NCBI RefSeq assembly: GCF_000226975.2 | Contig: NZ_CP019285.1 | Span: 2,542,001 to 2,606,000, forward strand | Length of the DNA: 64,000 bases | Direction of reading: 5' to 3' | Source: Halobiforma lacisalsi AJ5 | GTDB lineage: Archaea > Halobacteriota > Halobacteria > Halobacteriales > Natrialbaceae | Shown here: positions 1,787-49,388 of the stretch, one piece after another | Numbering within the stretch: the first letter of the stretch is position 1 | Layout of the letters: every line of letters begins with the position of its first letter | The notes under the pieces: model-generated | What the model saw: only the letters and a program-made list of their open reading frames with translations | Told to the model about the DNA's origin: nothing | Databases searched by the model: none | Translations under genes and position numbers: made by a program

Positions 1787-2263
1787 ATGTCACGATCGAC
1801 TTCGATTCTGGTCCCCCACGACGGGTCCGGGCACGCACAGTCGGCGCTGGAGTACGCTCTCGAGACCTTTCCGGACGGACGGATCGTCCTCTTTCACGCG
1901 ATCGACCCGTTCGAGCGGACCGACGACGAGGACGAAGACGAAGACGAGGACGAGGACGGGGATGGACTGACCCCGCTGACCGAAGCCTGGCACGAGAACA
2001 AGCGGGAAGCGGCGTCAGAACTCTTCGCGGAGGCCCTCGAGGCCGTCGACGTCGACCCCGACGACGCCGAAATCGAGACGGCCACCGCGGTCGGCTCCCC
2101 GCCACAGACGATCGTCGGCTACGTCGAGGACGCCGAGATCGATCAGGTCGTGATGGGGAGCCGCGGTAGAAGCACCCGGGGGACCGCGACGGACCTGCGT
2201 CTCGGCAGTACCGCGGAGGTCGTCGTCAGGCGGGTCGAGATTCCGGTCACAGTCGTGCGGTAA
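1787..2263 (+). CDS. Universal stress protein (UspA family) with acidic insert
   Basis: I start this gene at ATG 1787 (MSRSTSILVPHDGSG) rather than the in-frame TTG 27 bases earlier, because the Usp beta-1 strand begins immediately after the ATG. The protein has 158 residues. After the second strand there is a run of alternating Asp/Glu (about residues 37-54) that replaces the usual loop. The C-terminal nucleotide motif is altered: GSRGR is followed by a longer insertion before LGSTAEVVVRR, so ATP binding is uncertain. It is the third of three usp genes in the same direction. Confidence 0.85.
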   Translation: MSRSTSILVPHDGSGHAQSALEYALETFPDGRIVLFHAIDPFERTDDEDEDEDEDEDGDGLTPLTEAWHENKREAASELFAEALEAVDVDPDDAEIETATAVGSPPQTIVGYVEDAEIDQVVMGSRGRSTRGTATDLRLGSTAEVVVRRVEIPVTVVR

Positions 2264-3421: not shown

Positions 3422-4855
3422 ATGCCCGCCGATCGACCGAACGTCGTGCTGATTACCTGCCACGATCTGGGTCGGTACCTCGGTTGTTACGGGGCTGACG
3501 TCGAAACACCCCGGATCGACGAGTTCGCCGATCGCGGTGCCCTCTTCGAGAATCACTTCGTGACGGCCCCGCAGTGTTCGCCCAGCCGCGGCAGTTTCAT
3601 GACCGGCCGCCATCCCCACGTCAACGGCCTGATGGGGCTGGCCCACGGCGACTGGGAACTCGACGACGGCGAACGGATCCTCCCACACTACCTCGACGAC
3701 CTCGGCTACGAGACCCACCTGTTCGGGCTCCAGCACATCACCCAGGACACCGACCGCCTCGAGTACGAGTACGTCCACTCGGAGGGGAACCTCTACCCGG
3801 GTGTCTCGCCGGATGTCCACGAGGCCAACCGGGCGCGAAACGTCGCCTCGGTGGTCTCCGGCTTCCTCGAGAAAGCCGCGTTCGACGCGCCCTTCTTCGC
3901 CGCCGTCGGCTTCTTCGAACTCCATCGCGTCGAGGAGGAGAACGGCCGGTTCGGCTTCGACAGCGACTACTACGAGACGGACGACCCCGACGAGGTTCGA
4001 CCCCTGACCTATCTCCCCGATCGGCGCGGCGTCCGGCAGGACCTGGCGGAGATGCACGGTATGGTCCGGGCCGTCGACGACGCCGTCGGCTCGATCCTCG
4101 ATGCGCTGGCCGAGACCGGTCTCGAGGAGGAAACCCTGGTCGTCTTTACGACGGAACACGGGATCGCCTTCCCGCGGGCGAAGGGCAGTTGCTACGATCC
4201 GGGGATCGAGGCGGCGCTATTGCTCCGGTATCCCGGCGTGGCGGACGACGGGACGCGGTACGACGAACTGGTGAGCAACGTCGACGTGTTACCGACGCTG
4301 CTCGAGCTCGTCGCGTGGGACGGCGGTGACGGCGGTAACGACGGAGGCGGGGACGGGAACGGGAACGGGGACGAGAAAAGGGACGGCACCGTCGTGGACG
4401 ACCTCGAGCGCCCCGACGGGCTGAACGGGCGAAGCTTCCTGTCGCTGCTGACCGGTGACGAGTACGAGCCCCGCGAACGGGTGTTCGCCGGGATGACCTG
4501 GCACGACATGTACAACCCGGTCCGAGCGATCCGGACGGAGCAGTACAAGTACATTCGGAGCTTCTGGCACCTCCCGGAAGTGTACCTCACCAAGGACGTC
4601 TTCGCGAGCGAAGCCGGCCGGGCCGTCCGGGAGAGCGACGCCGTCCCGCCACGTCCGTACGAGGAACTGTACGACCTCGAGGAGAGCCCTCAGGAGAACG
4701 AGAACGTCGTCTTCGAACCCCGGTACCAGGACGTCCGCGAGGACCTCGCCCGCCAGCTCCACGAGTGGATGGCGGCGACTGACGACCCATTACTCGACGG
4801 GCCTGTCGTCCCCGGGGATTACGGGGCGATCACGACGTGGCCCTACGAGTCGTAG
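3422..4855 (+). CDS. Sulfatase (type I, formylglycine-dependent family)
   Basis: 477 residues of the alkaline-phosphatase/sulfatase superfamily. The signature CxPxR is present (C52-S-P-S-R56, in APQCSPSRGSFMTGRHP); the cysteine would be converted to formylglycine by a maturation enzyme that is not in this window. Other landmarks are the N-terminal metal region VLITCHDLGRYLGCYG and TTEHGIAFPRAKG, consistent with the heparan-N-sulfatase-like branch. Around residues 300-325 there is a Gly/Asp/Asn-rich insertion that looks like a disordered surface loop. No signal peptide is evident, so a cytoplasmic location is likely. AGTTATTCGG at 3391-3400 fits a leaderless promoter. Substrate unknown. Confidence 0.85.
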   Translation: MPADRPNVVLITCHDLGRYLGCYGADVETPRIDEFADRGALFENHFVTAPQCSPSRGSFMTGRHPHVNGLMGLAHGDWELDDGERILPHYLDDLGYETHLFGLQHITQDTDRLEYEYVHSEGNLYPGVSPDVHEANRARNVASVVSGFLEKAAFDAPFFAAVGFFELHRVEEENGRFGFDSDYYETDDPDEVRPLTYLPDRRGVRQDLAEMHGMVRAVDDAVGSILDALAETGLEEETLVVFTTEHGIAFPRAKGSCYDPGIEAALLLRYPGVADDGTRYDELVSNVDVLPTLLELVAWDGGDGGNDGGGDGNGNGDEKRDGTVVDDLERPDGLNGRSFLSLLTGDEYEPRERVFAGMTWHDMYNPVRAIRTEQYKYIRSFWHLPEVYLTKDVFASEAGRAVRESDAVPPRPYEELYDLEESPQENENVVFEPRYQDVREDLARQLHEWMAATDDPLLDGPVVPGDYGAITTWPYES

Positions 4856-4880
4856 CCGACGCGAGTCGTAGCCGACGCGG

Positions 4881-5981
4881 TCAGACCATCGCGTCGTCGC
4901 GTACGTCCGGGTTCCGGCGCACGTAGTCGACCAGCCGGTCCGCGTAGGATTCGAAGGGCGGCACCTCGATCCCGCTGCCCGCGAGCGCCCGACGGGTCGC
5001 CGGGCAGGCGTACCGCGTCGGGTGGTCGAGGTAGTCGAGGGTCGCCGGCTCGAGGTCGACATCGAGCCAGGCCTCGAGACGTTCGGTCACCGCCCGCGCG
5101 AGTGACTTCGTCGTCGGCACGCCGACGGTACGGTGACCGGCCGCGTCGGCGAGCACGTCCACGAACCGCGAGACGGGAAGCGGCGCGGGGTCACACAGCT
5201 GATAGACCTCGCCGACGGACTCTTCGCGGTCGCTGAGAGAGGCAATGGCGTCGACGACGAAGTCGCGGGGGACGACGTTGAGTTCGGCCCCGTCCGCGCC
5301 CGGCGGCGCGAACGTCACCGAGAGCCAGGACGGCTGAGCCAGCAGCAGCCGTAGCAGGTAGTATGGGCCGTCGTACTTGTCGGTCTCGCCGGTCCGGCTG
5401 TCCCCGACGACGATCGCGGGGCGGTAGATCGTTGCGGGGAGTCCGTCGGCCATCCGCTCCTGGACCGCCACCTCCGCGCGGTACTTGGTCTCCTCGTAGT
5501 GGTTGTTGAACGACTGGCCCTCCCGCAGGTGGTCCTCGGTGAAGACGCCGTCGTAGCGACCGCTGACGTAGCAGGTGCTCACGTAGTGGAGGCGAGCGCC
5601 GCGTTCCTCGACGAACTCGAGGACGTGTTCGGTCCCCCCGACGTTGACCGCCTCCGCCAGGTCGCGGTCGACCCCGAGGTCGTAGACGGCCGCGAGGTGG
5701 TAGACCTCGCCGACGTCGTCGAGCGCCGCCGCGTCGTCCAGTCCCAGGTCCGGCTCGGTGATATCGCCCTCGAGCAGGCGAACGTCCTCGTCGTCGACGC
5801 CCGCGAGCCCATCGGTGATCTCCCGCGCCCGACGGCGCGCGGTCTCGAGGTATCGGGGCTGGACCAGGCAGGCGACCGGCCCGTCCCCGCGGGCTAACAG
5901 CCGCTCGAGCAGGGCCGACCCCAGGAAGCCGGGGAAGCCGGTGAGAAACACCTCGGTGTCGGCGGCGTCGGTCACGGTCAC
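4881..5981 (-). CDS. NAD(P)-dependent SDR, thioester-reductase/male-sterility-like
   Basis: The start is GTG 5981, which overlaps the stop of the aldehyde dehydrogenase gene (GTGA), giving 366 residues. The frame stays open far upstream, but that part is only an antisense shadow of the dehydrogenase. The protein is an extended SDR: nucleotide motif TGFPGFLG (about 14-21), STCYVSG (135-141) and the catalytic YxxxK at Y162/K166 (HYEETKYRAE). This branch (NAD_binding_4) reduces acyl thioesters or sugar/lipid substrates. Coupling to an aldehyde dehydrogenase suggests both act on one aldehyde/acyl intermediate; that is inference. Confidence 0.8.
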   Translation of the reverse strand: MTVTDAADTEVFLTGFPGFLGSALLERLLARGDGPVACLVQPRYLETARRRAREITDGLAGVDDEDVRLLEGDITEPDLGLDDAAALDDVGEVYHLAAVYDLGVDRDLAEAVNVGGTEHVLEFVEERGARLHYVSTCYVSGRYDGVFTEDHLREGQSFNNHYEETKYRAEVAVQERMADGLPATIYRPAIVVGDSRTGETDKYDGPYYLLRLLLAQPSWLSVTFAPPGADGAELNVVPRDFVVDAIASLSDREESVGEVYQLCDPAPLPVSRFVDVLADAAGHRTVGVPTTKSLARAVTERLEAWLDVDLEPATLDYLDHPTRYACPATRRALAGSGIEVPPFESYADRLVDYVRRNPDVRDDAMV

Positions 5982-34958: not shown

Positions 34959-35369
34959 ATGACCGACGCTACAGGTCGGCTCGAGCGATACCTGGCCGAC
35001 GAACTGGGCGAGTGTCGCGACGACGACCTCGAGAAACGACTCGACGAACTCGAGTCCCTCGACGGCGAGTTCGCGGAGTCGACGCTGGAACGGGACGTGG
35101 GAGTCCTCTCCGCGCTGGCGAACGAAACTCGGTACCGGATCGTCCGCTTGCTGGTCGAGGCCGACGGCGAACTCTGTGTCTGCGAGCTGTCGCCGCTGCT
35201 CGACGTTAGCCAGAGCGCGATCAGTCACGCCCTCTCCCGACTGCACGAGGAGGGGCTGGTAACCCGGCGGAAGGACGGCAAGTGGCGCAAGTACGAACCG
35301 ACACGGCGGGCGATCGCCCTCGTGACCGCGCTGGACGGGACGCGCCGTCGGAGCAGTACTCGATCGTAG
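34959..35369 (+). CDS. arsR: ArsR-family arsenite-responsive repressor
   Basis: 136 residues. A winged-helix core (VLSALANETRYRIVRLLVEADGEL, then CVCELSPLLDVSQSAISHAL and GLVTRRKDGKWRKYEPT) sits behind a 45-residue charged helical N-terminus. The classic arsenite-sensing ELCVCEL motif at the start of the recognition-helix region is present, with cysteines two apart. It should repress the downstream ars genes until As(III) or Sb(III) binds. It is followed after 172 bp by the RidA-like gene and then acr3, all in one direction. Confidence 0.88.
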   Translation: MTDATGRLERYLADELGECRDDDLEKRLDELESLDGEFAESTLERDVGVLSALANETRYRIVRLLVEADGELCVCELSPLLDVSQSAISHALSRLHEEGLVTRRKDGKWRKYEPTRRAIALVTALDGTRRRSSTRS

Positions 35370-43820: not shown

Positions 43821-44687
43821 CTACCCGAACTTGCCGGTGATGTAGTCTTCGACGCGGTCGTGTTCGGGATTCTCGAAGATCTTGTTCGTGTCGTCGAACT
43901 CCACGAGGCGGCCTCCGGTGAGGAAGACGGCGGTCTTGTCCGAGATGCGGGCCGCCTGCTGCATGTTGTGGGTGACGATGATGACCGTGTACTCCTCGGC
44001 GAGTTCCTCGACCAGGTCCTCGATCTTCGAGGTCGCGACGGGGTCGAGCGCCGACGCCGGCTCGTCCATCAGGATCACTTCCGGGTCGGGCGCGATCGCT
44101 CGCGCAATGCACAGGCGCTGCTGCTGGCCGCCGGAGAGGTCCAGCCCGCTCGTCTCGAGTTGGTCCTCGACCTCGTCGAGGAGGGCAGCCCGCTCGAGGG
44201 CGGTGTGGACCTGTTCGTCGAGGTCGCCGTCGTCTTCGCCCTGGACGCGGAGGCCGTAGGCGACGTTGTCGTAGATGGACTTGGGGAAGGGGTTCGGCTT
44301 CTGGAAGACCATGCCGATCTTCCGGCGCAGGGCGACGGGATCGACGTCGTCGTCGTAGACGTTCTTCCCGCGGAAGAAGAGGTCGCCCTCGACGCGAGCG
44401 ACGTCGATGAGGTCGTTCATCCGGTTGATCGACCGCAAGAACGTCGACTTCCCACAGCCCGACGGGCCGATCAGCGCCGTCACCTGCTGTTCCGGGATCT
44501 CCATCGAGATACTCTGTAGCGCCTGGTCGTCGCCGTAGTAGACGTCCAGGTCCCGCGACTCGATGATCGTCTCGGCCGGTTCGGCGTCGCGGCGAGAATC
44601 TTCGTCGGTAACCGACCCGATCCCGGATTCCGGACGGCCGGTCTCGGACGTCGATACAGTTCCTGGGCCGCCGCCGTTCGCGGTCAT
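43821..44687 (-). CDS. pstB: Phosphate ABC transporter ATPase PstB, copy 2
   Basis: 288 residues. The N-terminal 46 residues ([20 protein letters not shown]...) are unrelated to copy 1, but from Ile-Glu-Ser-Arg onward the two proteins differ at only about six positions (for example Lys/Gln, Gly/Asp, Asp/Glu, Glu/Asp and two Val/Ile). All ABC motifs are intact: [18 protein letters not shown] and [11 protein letters not shown]. It lies 349 bp upstream of pstS in the same direction, so the locus reads pstB2-pstS-pstC-pstA-pstB1. It may serve the same permease or a second Pst system whose other genes are gone. Confidence 0.94.
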
Positions 44688-45268: not shown

Positions 45269-45931
45269 TTACTCATCACCGTCCAGGATGTTGTCCGGCG
45301 ATAGATCGATTCGCAGGATATCCCCGGCCGAGACGGTTATTCCTGTATCGCTTTCACTGCCGAGCGTGAAATCGAACGTCCCGTCGCCACCATGTTCGAT
45401 CGAACTCTCGTTGAGGTCGAACTCGACGGTCTCAGTGGCGGAATACTGAGTTACGTCCTCAACGTCACTGGGTTCGTCCTGTTGATCCGGCTGGTCCAGA
45501 TCGATATCACTGGCATCGATCGAGACGGAATCCGTGGTGTCGAGTTTCACAGGCTCATCCGTCGACGTGACGGCCTGACGATCGAGGTCGACGTCCGCGA
45601 TAACCCGCGTTTCGTCGGGGGCATCGATCGGGGCGACTTTGACGTACATCGTGTCGTCGTGTAACTCCGATGCCCAGACGTCGAAGTGGACGGCAGCACC
45701 GTCATCGAAGTAGTTCTGGACGGTGTCGTTCTGCCAGGCCGTTGTGAGAGCACGGTCGATCTCGGCATCCGTCATCGCGTCCGAATTAGTGATCTCGGTC
45801 GTGTAGTTCGCGGGCAATCCATCGGCTGATAGGGTATCAGCTGTCGAACTGGTCATCGCTGCGGTAGTGACACTGCCAGCCCCAAGGACGAGCAGTGCAA
45901 CGATCGCAAGCACGGGTACTGTATGTCGCAT
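45269..45931 (-). CDS. Secreted acidic protein of unknown function
   Basis: 220 residues from ATG 45931 with GAGGTG 7 nt upstream. The N-terminus is a Sec-type signal (MRHTVPVLAIVALLVLGAGS, cleavage likely near TTAAM). The mature part is very acidic. Residues 50-125 have helix-then-strand character (AEIDRALTTAWQNDTVQNYF, then VKVAPIDAPDETRVIADVDL) that resembles a PepSY-like unit, and the C-terminal part is a beta-rich Asp/Thr/Ser segment. The DNA is visibly less GC-rich than neighbouring genes. It is transcribed in the same direction as the membrane regulator behind it. Function unknown. Confidence 0.7.
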   Translation of the reverse strand: MRHTVPVLAIVALLVLGAGSVTTAAMTSSTADTLSADGLPANYTTEITNSDAMTDAEIDRALTTAWQNDTVQNYFDDGAAVHFDVWASELHDDTMYVKVAPIDAPDETRVIADVDLDRQAVTSTDEPVKLDTTDSVSIDASDIDLDQPDQQDEPSDVEDVTQYSATETVEFDLNESSIEHGGDGTFDFTLGSESDTGITVSAGDILRIDLSPDNILDGDE

Positions 45932-46022
45932 TGGTGTGTCACCTCGTTGGGAGTGCCATACCCAGCCTCGAGTCGGCCTCGAGTCAGCAGTATGGGTGCT
46001 GCTTCTCCGAGATTGCTCGAGC

Positions 46023-46039
46023 CGGGAGTGAGACTCCCG
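46023..46039. repeat. Inverted repeat upstream of the secreted protein gene
   Basis: CGGGAGT (46023-46029), spacer GAG, then ACTCCCG (46033-46039): a perfect 7-bp inverted repeat between the regulator stop and the next gene. It could be the terminator hairpin of the regulator gene or an operator. Closer to the gene, GCCTCGAGTC occurs twice 11 bp apart (45965 and 45976). Confidence 0.55.
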
Positions 46040-46052
46040 AGTACACCATTCG

Positions 46053-46114
46053 CTGAAAGACCGGAAAGTGTTTGATTGGAAACTAGTTTTGGAACGCCTT
46101 TCAGACTCGTTTCT
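46053..46114. promoter_or_regulatory. Cluster of TGAAA/TTTCA half-sites, copy near 45931 gene
   Basis: TGAAA at 46054, GGAAA at 46063 and 46078, then TTTCA at 46099 and TTTCT at 46110. The outer elements CTGAAAG (46053-46059) and CTTTCAG (46098-46104) are exact inverted copies. It resembles the array at 46781-46838 and may be bound by the same regulator. Confidence 0.45.
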
Positions 46115-46128
46115 CGTAGCTGGTCGTC

Positions 46129-46731
46129 TCACTTCAAAACGACGACGTTGCCCATTCCTCTCCGCTTCCGTTCGACTAACCCTTTGCCCTCGAGGGTGTC
46201 GAGTGTTCGGCTAACCGTGGCCTTCGAGAGATCCGTGTCCGCGACGATCTCTCGTTGAGGGAGTGTGCCGTCCGCATCGAGCACGGTCGAATAGACGGTT
46301 TCCTCGTGGTTTTGCAGTCGAGCAACCGTTTCTTCCCACTGCTCTTGCTGATCACGGTCCCTGAATTGTACGGTCGCATCCCCACGGGTAACCGCAGTAC
46401 GTTCAGTTGTCCGAGGCTGTGCCGTCGGTGATGATCGGTTCTCCGTCCTTTCGACGGACCGTCCGCTGGATCCAGCGGTCGCGGCTGTAGTAAAAGACTC
46501 GAGGAGGAATAGATAGGTTCCACTGGCACCGAGAAGCGAAGCGGCAACAGCGATAATCGCGACGTCAGTATAGGTAAAGTACTGGCCTAATTGGGTGGTC
46601 TCCGTACCGTTTTCCCCAACGGAGACCATGACTGGCGATGGTGTAATCAACTGCGTGGCAAGCACGAAGATCGCGGCAACGAAGACGGCTGCCGCACCCA
46701 GGTGCTTCCCATGGAGGGCTGACAGATCCAT
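46129..46731 (-). CDS. Membrane-anchored winged-helix regulator
   Basis: 200 residues from ATG 46731 (MDLSALHGKHLGAAAVFVAA). Two transmembrane helices (about 11-30 and 56-76) flank a 25-residue external loop (SVGENGTETTQLGQYF). After a Ser/Thr/Arg linker comes a cytoplasmic winged helix of the MarR/IclR style: ETVYSTVLDADGTLPQREIV, then DTDLSKATVSRTLDTLEGKG and a basic wing LVERKRRGMGNVVVLK. A one-component membrane regulator is the natural reading. It is divergent from the secreted-protein gene at 46880 and followed by another at 45931; regulation of both is inference. Confidence 0.8.
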   Translation of the reverse strand: MDLSALHGKHLGAAAVFVAAIFVLATQLITPSPVMVSVGENGTETTQLGQYFTYTDVAIIAVAASLLGASGTYLFLLESFTTAATAGSSGRSVERTENRSSPTAQPRTTERTAVTRGDATVQFRDRDQQEQWEETVARLQNHEETVYSTVLDADGTLPQREIVADTDLSKATVSRTLDTLEGKGLVERKRRGMGNVVVLK

Positions 46732-46780
46732 ACGGTCAGATAGTGGAAACCTCCCTCTAATGCGTATCGCTCTTGTGCCG

Positions 46781-46838
46781 TGAAACAGGGCTGAAACAGC
46801 CGTGAAATGCGTTTTCAACGCGTTTCCAACTGCTTTCA
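46781..46838. promoter_or_regulatory. Phased array of six TGAAA/TTTCA half-sites
   Basis: In the divergent promoter region, TGAAA occurs at 46781, 46792 and 46803 (exactly 11 bp apart), followed by TTTCA at 46813, TTTCC at 46823 and TTTCA at 46834 (10-11 bp apart). GGCTG-AAA-CAGCC (46789-46801) is a perfect palindrome within it. One-turn spacing would place all sites on one face of the helix, as for a cooperatively bound operator. Confidence 0.55.
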
Positions 46839-46879
46839 GCACAGTATTGATTGGGTCTTTCACCGAATAGAAGACACGA

Positions 46880-47527
46880 ATGGTGTCCGAGTTACAGTCC
46901 AAGATCATGTTCCTGGGTAGTTTGGCCCTCCTCGGCGTTGGACTCGCTGTGGCTGGAACTGCAGTGGGTGTCCCTACCCCACTCGTCGACTCTCAACCGA
47001 GTTCGGAATTCGTCGTCTCGGCGGAAAACGTCACACTCGAGCACGGTGACGAGCAGGCGGCCGTCGTCGAGGATATGAGCCATGTCGACCAGGTCGAGAT
47101 CGATCGCCAAGACGGCGGTACGTTCCACGTCAACACGACTACAGAGCAACCCCTGACCGAACGTGACCGCCGAGACGCACAGGCGATCGCTCGAACTAAC
47201 GAAACCGTTCGACAAGCACTCGCGGATGTCGAACAGTACGAGATGACCGTCGAACCGATTCAACAGATCTCGGCGGATGCGATGGAGACAACGACGCTCT
47301 CCGGGCTCAACGAAACGTCGACGGATAACGGTACGGAGACAGCGACGTTCTCGATCTCGACCGGAGGGCAGAACGAAAGTGTGACTATCGACCGTGATCC
47401 TACGTATCTCGAGGACGAAGCGACCGTTAGGGTAGTCCATCCCGGTGAAGATGAGACGTACTACTCGATCACAGTGGACCTCGAGACTGAGACGGTCACT
47501 GATATCACGGATTGGACGGATATATAG
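46880..47527 (+). CDS. Secreted or membrane-anchored protein of unknown function
   Basis: 215 residues from ATG 46880. An N-terminal hydrophobic helix (FLGSLALLGVGLAVAGTAVG, about 11-30) acts as signal or anchor. The outer part is rich in Asn/Thr with several N-glycosylation-type NxT/S sites. It contains a helical unit (DAQAIARTNETVRQALADVE) and a C-terminal strand pair TYYSITVDLETETVTDITDW, a layout echoing the secreted protein at 45269-45931 (PepSY-like by eye). Lower GC than surrounding genes. It diverges from the membrane regulator across the half-site array. Confidence 0.68.
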   Translation: MVSELQSKIMFLGSLALLGVGLAVAGTAVGVPTPLVDSQPSSEFVVSAENVTLEHGDEQAAVVEDMSHVDQVEIDRQDGGTFHVNTTTEQPLTERDRRDAQAIARTNETVRQALADVEQYEMTVEPIQQISADAMETTTLSGLNETSTDNGTETATFSISTGGQNESVTIDRDPTYLEDEATVRVVHPGEDETYYSITVDLETETVTDITDWTDI

Positions 47528-47847: not shown

Positions 47848-48849
47848 ATGGAGACGCGCAAGGTCCAGGTAACGGGCGGATCGACGTACACCGTCTCCCT
47901 GCCCAAGGAGTGGGCGACGGACAACGACGTCAGTTCCGGGACGACAGTGGAACTGTACCCAGAGGACGACGCCCTGCTGTTGACCCCACAGAGCGAGAGC
48001 GACCGACAGGAGGGCACGCTCGACGTCTCGGATCTCGAGGGAGAACGTCTTACGCGGGCCGTGATGACGATGTACGTCAGCGGCTTCGACATTATTCGAC
48101 TCGAGGCCGGCCGGATCACGACCGACCAGCGACGGGCGATCCGGTCGGCAACCCAGAGCCTGGTCGGCGTCGAAGTCTTAGAGGAGACGACCGACAGCGT
48201 CGTCATCCAGGATCTGCTCGATTCCTCGGAGCTGTCGATCGTCAACGCCGTCCGGCGGATGCGCCTGATCGCGACCTCGATGCTCGAGGACGCGGTGACG
48301 GCGCTGGTCGAGAACGACGACGACATCGCCCACGACGTCATCGAACGGGACGACGACGTCGACCGACTCTGGCTCGTGGTCTCGCGGATCTTCCGTGCCA
48401 CCCTCCGATCGCCGCGGGCGGCCGAGGAACTCGGCGTCTCCCGCGAGGACTGTTTCGACTTCCACTCTAGCGCCCGCCAACTGGAACGCGTCGCAGACCA
48501 CGCCGCGAAGATCAGCCAGCTCGCGCTCAAACTCGAGGAGATTCCCGAAAGCGTCGCCGAGGCGCTCGTCGCGTTGCAAGACGACGCCGCCGACGTCCTC
48601 GAGAAAGCGATGGACGCGTTGTTCGTCGAGGAAACCGACGAGGCAAACGCCCTGGGTCATGCCGCACGCGAGGCAGTCCTCGAGATCGACGAGCACACAC
48701 GTCACATTGACGATATGCTCCGCGAGCAGGAGCCGGTCCAGGCCCAGTCGCTCGGGCTGATCGTCGACTCGCTGTCCCGGAGCGCCGACTACGGCGGTAA
48801 CATCGCCGAAACCGCTCTCCAGAAGGCAGCGCCTCGACCGCGATCCTGA
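47848..48849 (+). CDS. AbrB-PhoU regulator of phosphate metabolism
   Basis: 333 residues. The N-terminus (METRKVQVTGGSTYTVSLPKEW...) is a SpoVT/AbrB swapped-hairpin DNA-binding domain; from about 100 there are two PhoU-like helical repeats (IVNAVRRMRLIATSMLEDAV and FHSSARQLERVADHAAKISQ). Archaeal proteins of this type are thought to sense the Pst state and bind DNA directly, unlike plain PhoU. With the pst genes, PhoU at 34125 and the kinase at 37329, it completes a phosphate locus. A leaderless promoter precedes it. Confidence 0.88.
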   Translation: METRKVQVTGGSTYTVSLPKEWATDNDVSSGTTVELYPEDDALLLTPQSESDRQEGTLDVSDLEGERLTRAVMTMYVSGFDIIRLEAGRITTDQRRAIRSATQSLVGVEVLEETTDSVVIQDLLDSSELSIVNAVRRMRLIATSMLEDAVTALVENDDDIAHDVIERDDDVDRLWLVVSRIFRATLRSPRAAEELGVSREDCFDFHSSARQLERVADHAAKISQLALKLEEIPESVAEALVALQDDAADVLEKAMDALFVEETDEANALGHAAREAVLEIDEHTRHIDDMLREQEPVQAQSLGLIVDSLSRSADYGGNIAETALQKAAPRPRS

Positions 48850-48944
48850 GCCCGACTCGATCGGATCGTACAGCGCTGTCGGCGATTTGACCTGTGAATC
48901 GCCGGGCCGGAAAGTAGATTTACAGGTAGTAGAAAGTGGTCCGC

Positions 48945-49388
48945 ATGCTCTCGAAGCGGCAATTTCTCGCGTGGACCGGCACCACAGTTCTCTCGCTTGC
49001 CGGGTGTGTGACGGCGAATATGGAGGCGGTCGACTACTACATCAAGGGCGACGACGCGTACGAGGCTGCCGAAGAGGCCAGAGCGAACGGCGACCTCGAG
49101 GGTGCACTGGAGGAGTACGAACGAGCCGCCGAGCGATTCGACGCCGCCTACGAGGCCTCGGAGACTGAACAGGCGAAGACGTTCAGCTACGAGGCCCGGG
49201 AACTGGCCCGGCTCCATGCCAAAGCCGCCCGGAACAAGCTCGAGGCGAAAAACGAGTTCGACGACGAGGCGGCGTACGAACGGGCCGATCTCGCCGAGTT
49301 CCTCGAAGACGACGAGCGGACACTGCTGGAGGAGTACGAGATCCGGAAGACGTCGGCGTTCGAGCGTCGGACGCGCATTCCGACCTGA
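48945..49388 (+). CDS. Putative Tat lipoprotein with helical repeats
   Basis: 147 residues from ATG 48945; GTG 48936 is the alternative. The N-terminus MLSKRQFLAWTGTTVLSLAGC resembles a Tat-type lipoprotein signal, though with Lys-Arg instead of the twin Arg, and a lipobox ending at the Cys. The mature part is a charged alpha-helical region rich in Ala and Glu (AYEAAEEARANGDLEGALEE), with a periodicity like TPR-type helical hairpins. It is probably anchored on the outside of the membrane. Function unknown. Confidence 0.65.
   Translation: MLSKRQFLAWTGTTVLSLAGCVTANMEAVDYYIKGDDAYEAAEEARANGDLEGALEEYERAAERFDAAYEASETEQAKTFSYEARELARLHAKAARNKLEAKNEFDDEAAYERADLAEFLEDDERTLLEEYEIRKTSAFERRTRIPT

Follow-up and report, generated by a model that had tools for sequence, protein, structure and literature searches.

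In co-component systems such as ToxR/ToxS and VtrA/VtrC, a membrane-held regulator is encoded beside one or more genes for small extracytoplasmic partners in a fast-evolving cassette; the regulators of the ToxR/VtrA type carry an N-terminal CadC-like HTH, one transmembrane (TM) segment and a folded periplasmic domain, and their partners are lipocalin-like (Kinch et al. 2022, PMC9214523). In archaea, ArnR and ArnR1 of Sulfolobus are membrane-bound one-component regulators with an N-terminal HTH, a HAMP domain, a sensor domain and C-terminal TM segments, which regulate the archaellum/pili through defined promoter boxes (PMC6396743). Transmembrane transcription regulators (TTRs), i.e., single proteins that combine a DNA-binding domain with at least one TM region, are reported for archaea generally (Demey et al. 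2023, PMC10269533).

Here we analyzed three neighbouring genes, g1, g2 and g3, in the window, i.e., a 64,000-nt stretch of the Halobiforma lacisalsi AJ5 genome (Table 1). The adjacency of g2 to g3 and g1 places the gene of a membrane-tethered regulator next to those of extracytoplasmic partners, the arrangement by which co-component systems are recognized, and the trio shares with ToxR/ToxS and VtrA/VtrC the character of a fast-evolving cassette. Unlike ToxR and VtrA, g2 has two TM segments joined by a 25-residue loop and a C-terminal winged HTH (wHTH) that is DUF7343/MarR-like rather than CadC-like. The trio also differs from both systems in having two PepSY/cystatin-like partners and an archaeal host; by this comparison, it appears to resemble co-component systems in design, not in family. 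With ArnR and ArnR1, g2 shares the two TM segments and the nature of an archaeal membrane-bound one-component regulator, but its TM segments are N-terminal and its wHTH C-terminal, which places it outside the ArnR definition, and ArnR comes without secreted partners. As a single protein with TM segments as well as a DNA-binding domain, g2 falls within the TTR definition and is like the TTRs in domain make-up; set against the available part of that source, the dedicated secreted pair, the operator array and the module are the trio's alone. CsmR was considered and set aside, because the available part of its description presents it as an archaellum and cell-shape regulator, not as this trio. No description of the trio was found in the open-access literature searched.

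Table 1. Positions in the window of the trio, its predicted regulatory regions and the flanking genes.
Feature	Position	Strand	Remarks
g1	45269-45931	-	220 aa, exported acidic protein; start at 45931
g2	46129-46731	-	200 aa, membrane regulator with two TM segments
g3	46880-47527	+	215 aa, membrane-anchored exported acidic protein
g1 5′ leader, putative	45932-46054	-	structured, by folding; presumed transcription start
g1 promoter	46054-46114	-	TTTC-N18-TCTTTCA (46054-46082) and GAAA/TTTC half-sites upstream to 46114
g2/g3 divergent promoter region	46732-46879	.	11-bp-phased half-site array
Exact array doublets, g2/g3 region	46781-46796 and 46792-46807		
g3 promoter element TTTC-N18-TCTTTCA	46834-46862	+	
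Flanking pstB-type ABC ATPase	43821-44687		
Flanking AbrB/MazE-like + PhoU protein	47848-48849		

The original prediction, made from the DNA letters of the window, had placed the three genes in a lower-GC island between the pstB-type ATPase gene and the AbrB-PhoU gene. GC measurement and Pfam bore this out, with a GC content of 0.54-0.59 in the trio versus about 0.62-0.67 on either side, and the three genes are neighbours more than by chance, since they lie together in many haloarchaeal families. Downstream of the AbrB-PhoU gene, at 48936-49388 (+), lies a gene for a 150-aa protein, lipoprotein-like or anchored, with acidic helical repeats resembling TPRs, for which no Pfam family exceeded the cut-off.

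The scan with g2 returned 24 loci, to which the g3 and g1 searches added more; at most of these g3 lies next to g2, and most also have g1. In an independent sample of 117 genomes of the order, g3 was present in 24 genomes, and both g2 and g1 adjoined it at all 22 strong loci, the window's included (L073-L094; a marginal locus, L095, E 5e-4, and a solitary copy on the second contig of the window's genome, L096, were left out of this count). A further locus (L097), the second in its genome (G029), has g2 and g3 with no recognized g1. Two gene orders were observed, g3<- g2-> g1->, as in the window, where g2 and g1 share a strand, with g1 coming after g2, and g3 runs divergently, and g1<- g3-> g2->. 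The flanking genes behaved differently: when the eight proteins that flank the trio in the window were compared with 24 other loci, a single one, the ABC ATPase, was matched, at 33% identity and near one locus. Hence the co-occurrence in other genomes by which the original prediction proposed to be judged was found, and so was the self-contained nature that it had attributed to the module: the trio stands as a unit of its own, and the pst/phoU neighbours do not travel along with it. In a metagenome-assembled genome (Euryarchaeota Ods01, L021), a distant g2 homologue lies after an acidic, N-terminally anchored protein (4367-4993) and before another exported protein; the anchored protein has a g3-like design and escapes the g3 profile, and this locus is possibly a divergent form of the module.

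The regulator g2 belongs to DUF7343 (PF24034; 46.5 bits versus a gathering cut-off of 27.6) and is also above the cut-off for MarR families in Pfam; DUF7343 is not named in the literature searched. A simple hydropathy scan, by which the TM segments of all three proteins were called, gave two hydrophobic stretches in g2 (residues 6-24 and 59-77), and the predicted topology leaves an outer loop of ~25 residues (about 30-54) whose conservation (0.67) is level with that of TM2 (0.65). A long, poorly conserved linker (mean 0.32) connects TM2 to the C-terminal wHTH (about residues 136-200), which is near-invariant across homologues. The sole match in a PDB sequence search was the Lrs14-like regulator 6cmv. 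The same genome (G000) encodes ten DUF7343 proteins above the cut-off (L051-L060), several of them in reading frames of 400-530 aa, which may be further membrane regulators belonging to this haloarchaeal family, and the window holds a weak DUF7343-like match under the cut-off at 35133-35282 (+), within a 138-aa frame.

Both exported proteins are without a Pfam family above the cut-off or an NCBIfam family. g1 has an N-terminal hydrophobic export-type signal and a strongly acidic composition (49 D+E versus 7 K+R), and g3 a single N-terminal hydrophobic segment (residues 9-27) followed by an acidic outer part. Comparison of their profiles (hhalign 94%, E 1.5e-7, 40 columns) indicated that they are remote homologues. 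g1 is the most variable member of the trio, and some of its homologues carry up to four tandem units. Its structural model is confident only at about residues 37-129, which form a strand, a helix and four strands, with a low-confidence tail; in the g3 model (mean pLDDT 72), a beta-rich part precedes a helix and four strands with an insert, which is included in the domain at residues 88-215.

The original prediction had suggested that both secreted proteins contain a PepSY-like unit, and here the level of comparison matters. Neither model had a Foldseek match at E <= 0.001, and the structural matches come from a second look with VIA-align. The g3 domain matched copper amine oxidase domains best (Z 9.2, 87 residues, rmsd 4.0) and, at lower scores, the PepSY chains 4exr (Z 5.7) and 3nqy 122-204 (Z 5.6); for the g1 model the values were 6.5 to amine oxidases and 4.8 to PepSY chains. 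4exr (CD1622) and 3nqy 122-204 (in the vibriolysin propeptide) are PepSY domains, and the amine oxidase matches are to the N-terminal domains called cystatin-like. All of these share with g1 and g3 a helix followed by antiparallel strands, and Z values of 4.8-9.2 may mean a common arrangement only; therefore we speak of a PepSY/cystatin-like fold and not of the PepSY family. At the sequence level, g1 and g3 are unlike PepSY domains: no match to PF03413 was found in Pfam or within their own genome, and hhalign against six haloarchaeal PepSY segments gave 17% for g3 and 1% for g1. The suggestion thus applies at most to the fold and is rejected for sequence membership. As to whether the partners are lipocalin-like, the models consist of a helix and strands and matched amine oxidase and PepSY domains among the families listed. 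A PDB sequence search with the g1 profile gave no match up to E 10, and the haloarchaeal literature searched yielded one survey naming PepSY, solely in connection with a protease family.

The gap between g3 and g2 carries GAAAC/GTTTC half-sites in nearly all compared genera. Half-sites in the same orientation are mostly spaced by 11 bp (11/22), and those in opposite orientation by 7, 18, 29 or 40 bp (7+11n), so that pairs form 12-bp palindromes, GAAACGCGTTTC, each shifted from the next by roughly one turn of the helix. Their density was 4.56 per 160 bp upstream of g3 versus 0.35 per 150 bp over the loci. In the window, the g3/g2 gap has 8 GAAA/TTTC sites versus 2.1 expected, a number reached in none of 1000 dinucleotide shuffles, and the g2-g1 gap has 5 versus 1.7 expected (p 0.006), with the longer GAAAC/GTTTC form not significant there (p 0.10). 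A further element, TTTC-N18-TCTTTCA, is common to the g1 and g3 promoters with the identical 18-nt spacing; two of its five occurrences in the genome are these promoters. Another exact copy lies in the window at 1868-1896 (+), far from the trio, possibly by chance.

The distribution of the array was followed by a pattern-based scan, with no weight matrix. The 4.38-Mb genome has two exact copies of the doublet TTTCAN5GTTTCA, and both lie inside the g3/g2 gap; with one mismatch, 23 sites were found versus 5 for the reversed control. In ten other module-bearing genomes, seven of the 11 exact GTTTCAN5GTTTCA doublets fall inside the module by position, and the four outside are not far above the reversed control, which had 2 in all 16 genomes; none was found in the six genomes that are without the module. 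A stricter array pattern gave only 3 matches in 17 genomes and was uninformative. The array therefore appears nearly restricted to the module, and given the four outside doublets and the one-mismatch sites, a wider regulon is conceivable. In the permuted loci, it lies between g1 and g3 and the region upstream of g2 is nearly bare, so that in the order g1<- g3-> g2-> it is no longer directly before g2; therefore it belongs above all to the g1 and g3 promoters. We infer that g2 binds the array, because of its linkage to it and its near-invariant wHTH. Since both secreted genes and g2 adjoin the same operator-like array, the earlier proposal that the wHTH controls both of them gains strong comparative evidence, and the predicted DNA wiring of the trio is, by comparison among loci, well supported.

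The putative g1 leader, from the promoter element to the start codon, is 54-190 nt long, and in each of the 32 leaders examined folding gave one dominant hairpin domain, taking up 57-98% of the leader, despite differing sequences. In the window, a single predicted hairpin covers 95% of the leader, with a dinucleotide-shuffle z of -3.1. The g1 leaders had a mean z of -2.9. Random segments taken from these loci gave -0.3 (p 2e-12), and the sequences upstream of g3 gave -1.5 (p 8e-5); the p-values are optimistic, since the leader start was picked by rule from a presumed transcription start and the 32 leaders are not independent. The hairpin could possibly control the translation of g1 or the stability of its mRNA.

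In the tree, g2 of the window groups with copies of Haloferacaceae, Natronoarchaeaceae and Natronomonadaceae (99/96) and not with those from its own family (e.g., Halopiger and Natrialba), and the window copy of the trio looks horizontally acquired. Plasmid-borne copies were found in Halobellus, Halostella, Halomontanus, Haloarcula and Haloferax mediterranei, annotated, where they are annotated at all, as 'hypothetical protein' and 'MarR family transcriptional regulator'. All three genes and the half-site arrays occur both in Haloferax mediterranei (plasmid pHME505; g3 E6P09_RS15890, g2 RS15895, g1 RS15900) and in Haloarcula hispanica (pHH400; g1 HAH_RS19045, g3 RS19040, g2 RS19035), each in a different order. 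A second g3 copy (L037, G000:C2:61576-62208), on a 216-kb contig of the same genome, shows 81% protein identity and 85% over 628 bp. With g2, g1 and the array all absent beside it, it was rejected as a second module; it has the look of a remnant truncated by an insertion element, because the homology begins just past the gene start and the copy follows TnpA/TnpB-like reading frames.

We propose, giving it an even chance, that the trio works as a mobile module which senses the envelope in a closed loop. It would be an archaeal counterpart of ToxR/ToxS-type co-component signalling, with its own secreted partners as the main output. In this reading, the membrane-held wHTH of g2 would bind cooperatively to the array of GAAACGCGTTTC-like palindromes, phased at 11 bp, in the g3/g2 gap, and to its shorter form in front of g1, and would thereby control g3, g1 and its own gene, and little else. 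Activation is slightly preferred over repression, because weak TATA-like sequences follow downstream of the array. The anchored g3, at the short conserved outer loop of g2, would most likely be the extracytoplasmic co-sensor through which a signal reaches g2, as ToxS is for ToxR and VtrC for VtrA, because it is anchored and lies beside g2 in both gene orders; counting against this role, the outer loop is shorter than the sensor domains of ToxR and VtrA. Nor would a regulator confined to its own partners be of obvious benefit to the cell. The exported g1 would be a secreted output, because it is exported and the most variable member, and/or a ligand that closes the loop by contacting g2, and its hairpin leader could add a post-transcriptional layer.

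The same evidence can be read in other ways. It is conceivable, if rather unlikely, that g2 senses the envelope through its own TM segments or loop and induces outward-acting g1 and g3, which do not feed back on it. The operator evidence would fit equally, the outer loop, conserved like TM2, could sense directly, and the variable number of units and the acidic exported body of g1 would suit such effectors. PepSY domains may inhibit proteases, and the fold of g1 and g3 resembles the PepSY domain of the vibriolysin propeptide; they would then be, e.g., PepSY-like inhibitors of extracellular proteases or surface-protecting proteins, but PepSY membership fails at the sequence level. Against effectors without co-sensing, g3 is kept beside g2 wherever it is found intact, as expected of a functional partner. 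It is improbable that, by an anti-sigma-like logic, proteolysis in the membrane or the linker frees the wHTH once the secreted partners stop shielding g2: the long unconserved linker is compatible with cleavage, but neither a cleavage motif nor a protease gene linked to the trio was noted, and such a linker is equally expected of a tether.

Slightly less probable still is that the array serves another, unlinked regulator while g2 controls other genes. Binding of g2 to the array is deduced from comparison, and one-mismatch sites occur elsewhere in the genome; on the other hand, the array hardly occurs outside the module, moves with g1 and g3 in permuted loci of different families, and its exact doublet is absent from the module-free genomes. 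A role of the trio as accessory to the phosphate (pst/phoU) cluster, as its place between pstB and the AbrB-PhoU gene could suggest, is hardly credible, and the link is largely refuted by the neighbours not being conserved at the 24 other loci.

A broader claim, to which we give somewhat less than an even chance, is that the trio represents a type of signalling cassette new to archaea. It would combine a phased operator dedicated to a membrane-held wHTH, two homologous PepSY/cystatin-like extracytoplasmic partners that the regulator reads or that read it, a regulon limited to the trio, a structured leader as second control of the secreted output, and horizontal spread. Few studies have addressed how archaea transmit envelope signals directly to DNA, and the trio offers a compact case, with a predicted operator, a predicted three-gene regulon, and copies in Haloferax mediterranei ATCC 33500 and Haloarcula hispanica ATCC 33960, so that archaeal membrane-bound transcription control becomes directly testable. 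If our reading is true, co-component signalling, which has been described in enteric bacteria, would extend to archaea with different protein folds, and the g2 trio would constitute a sensing circuit of the cell surface not described before, portable among haloarchaea.
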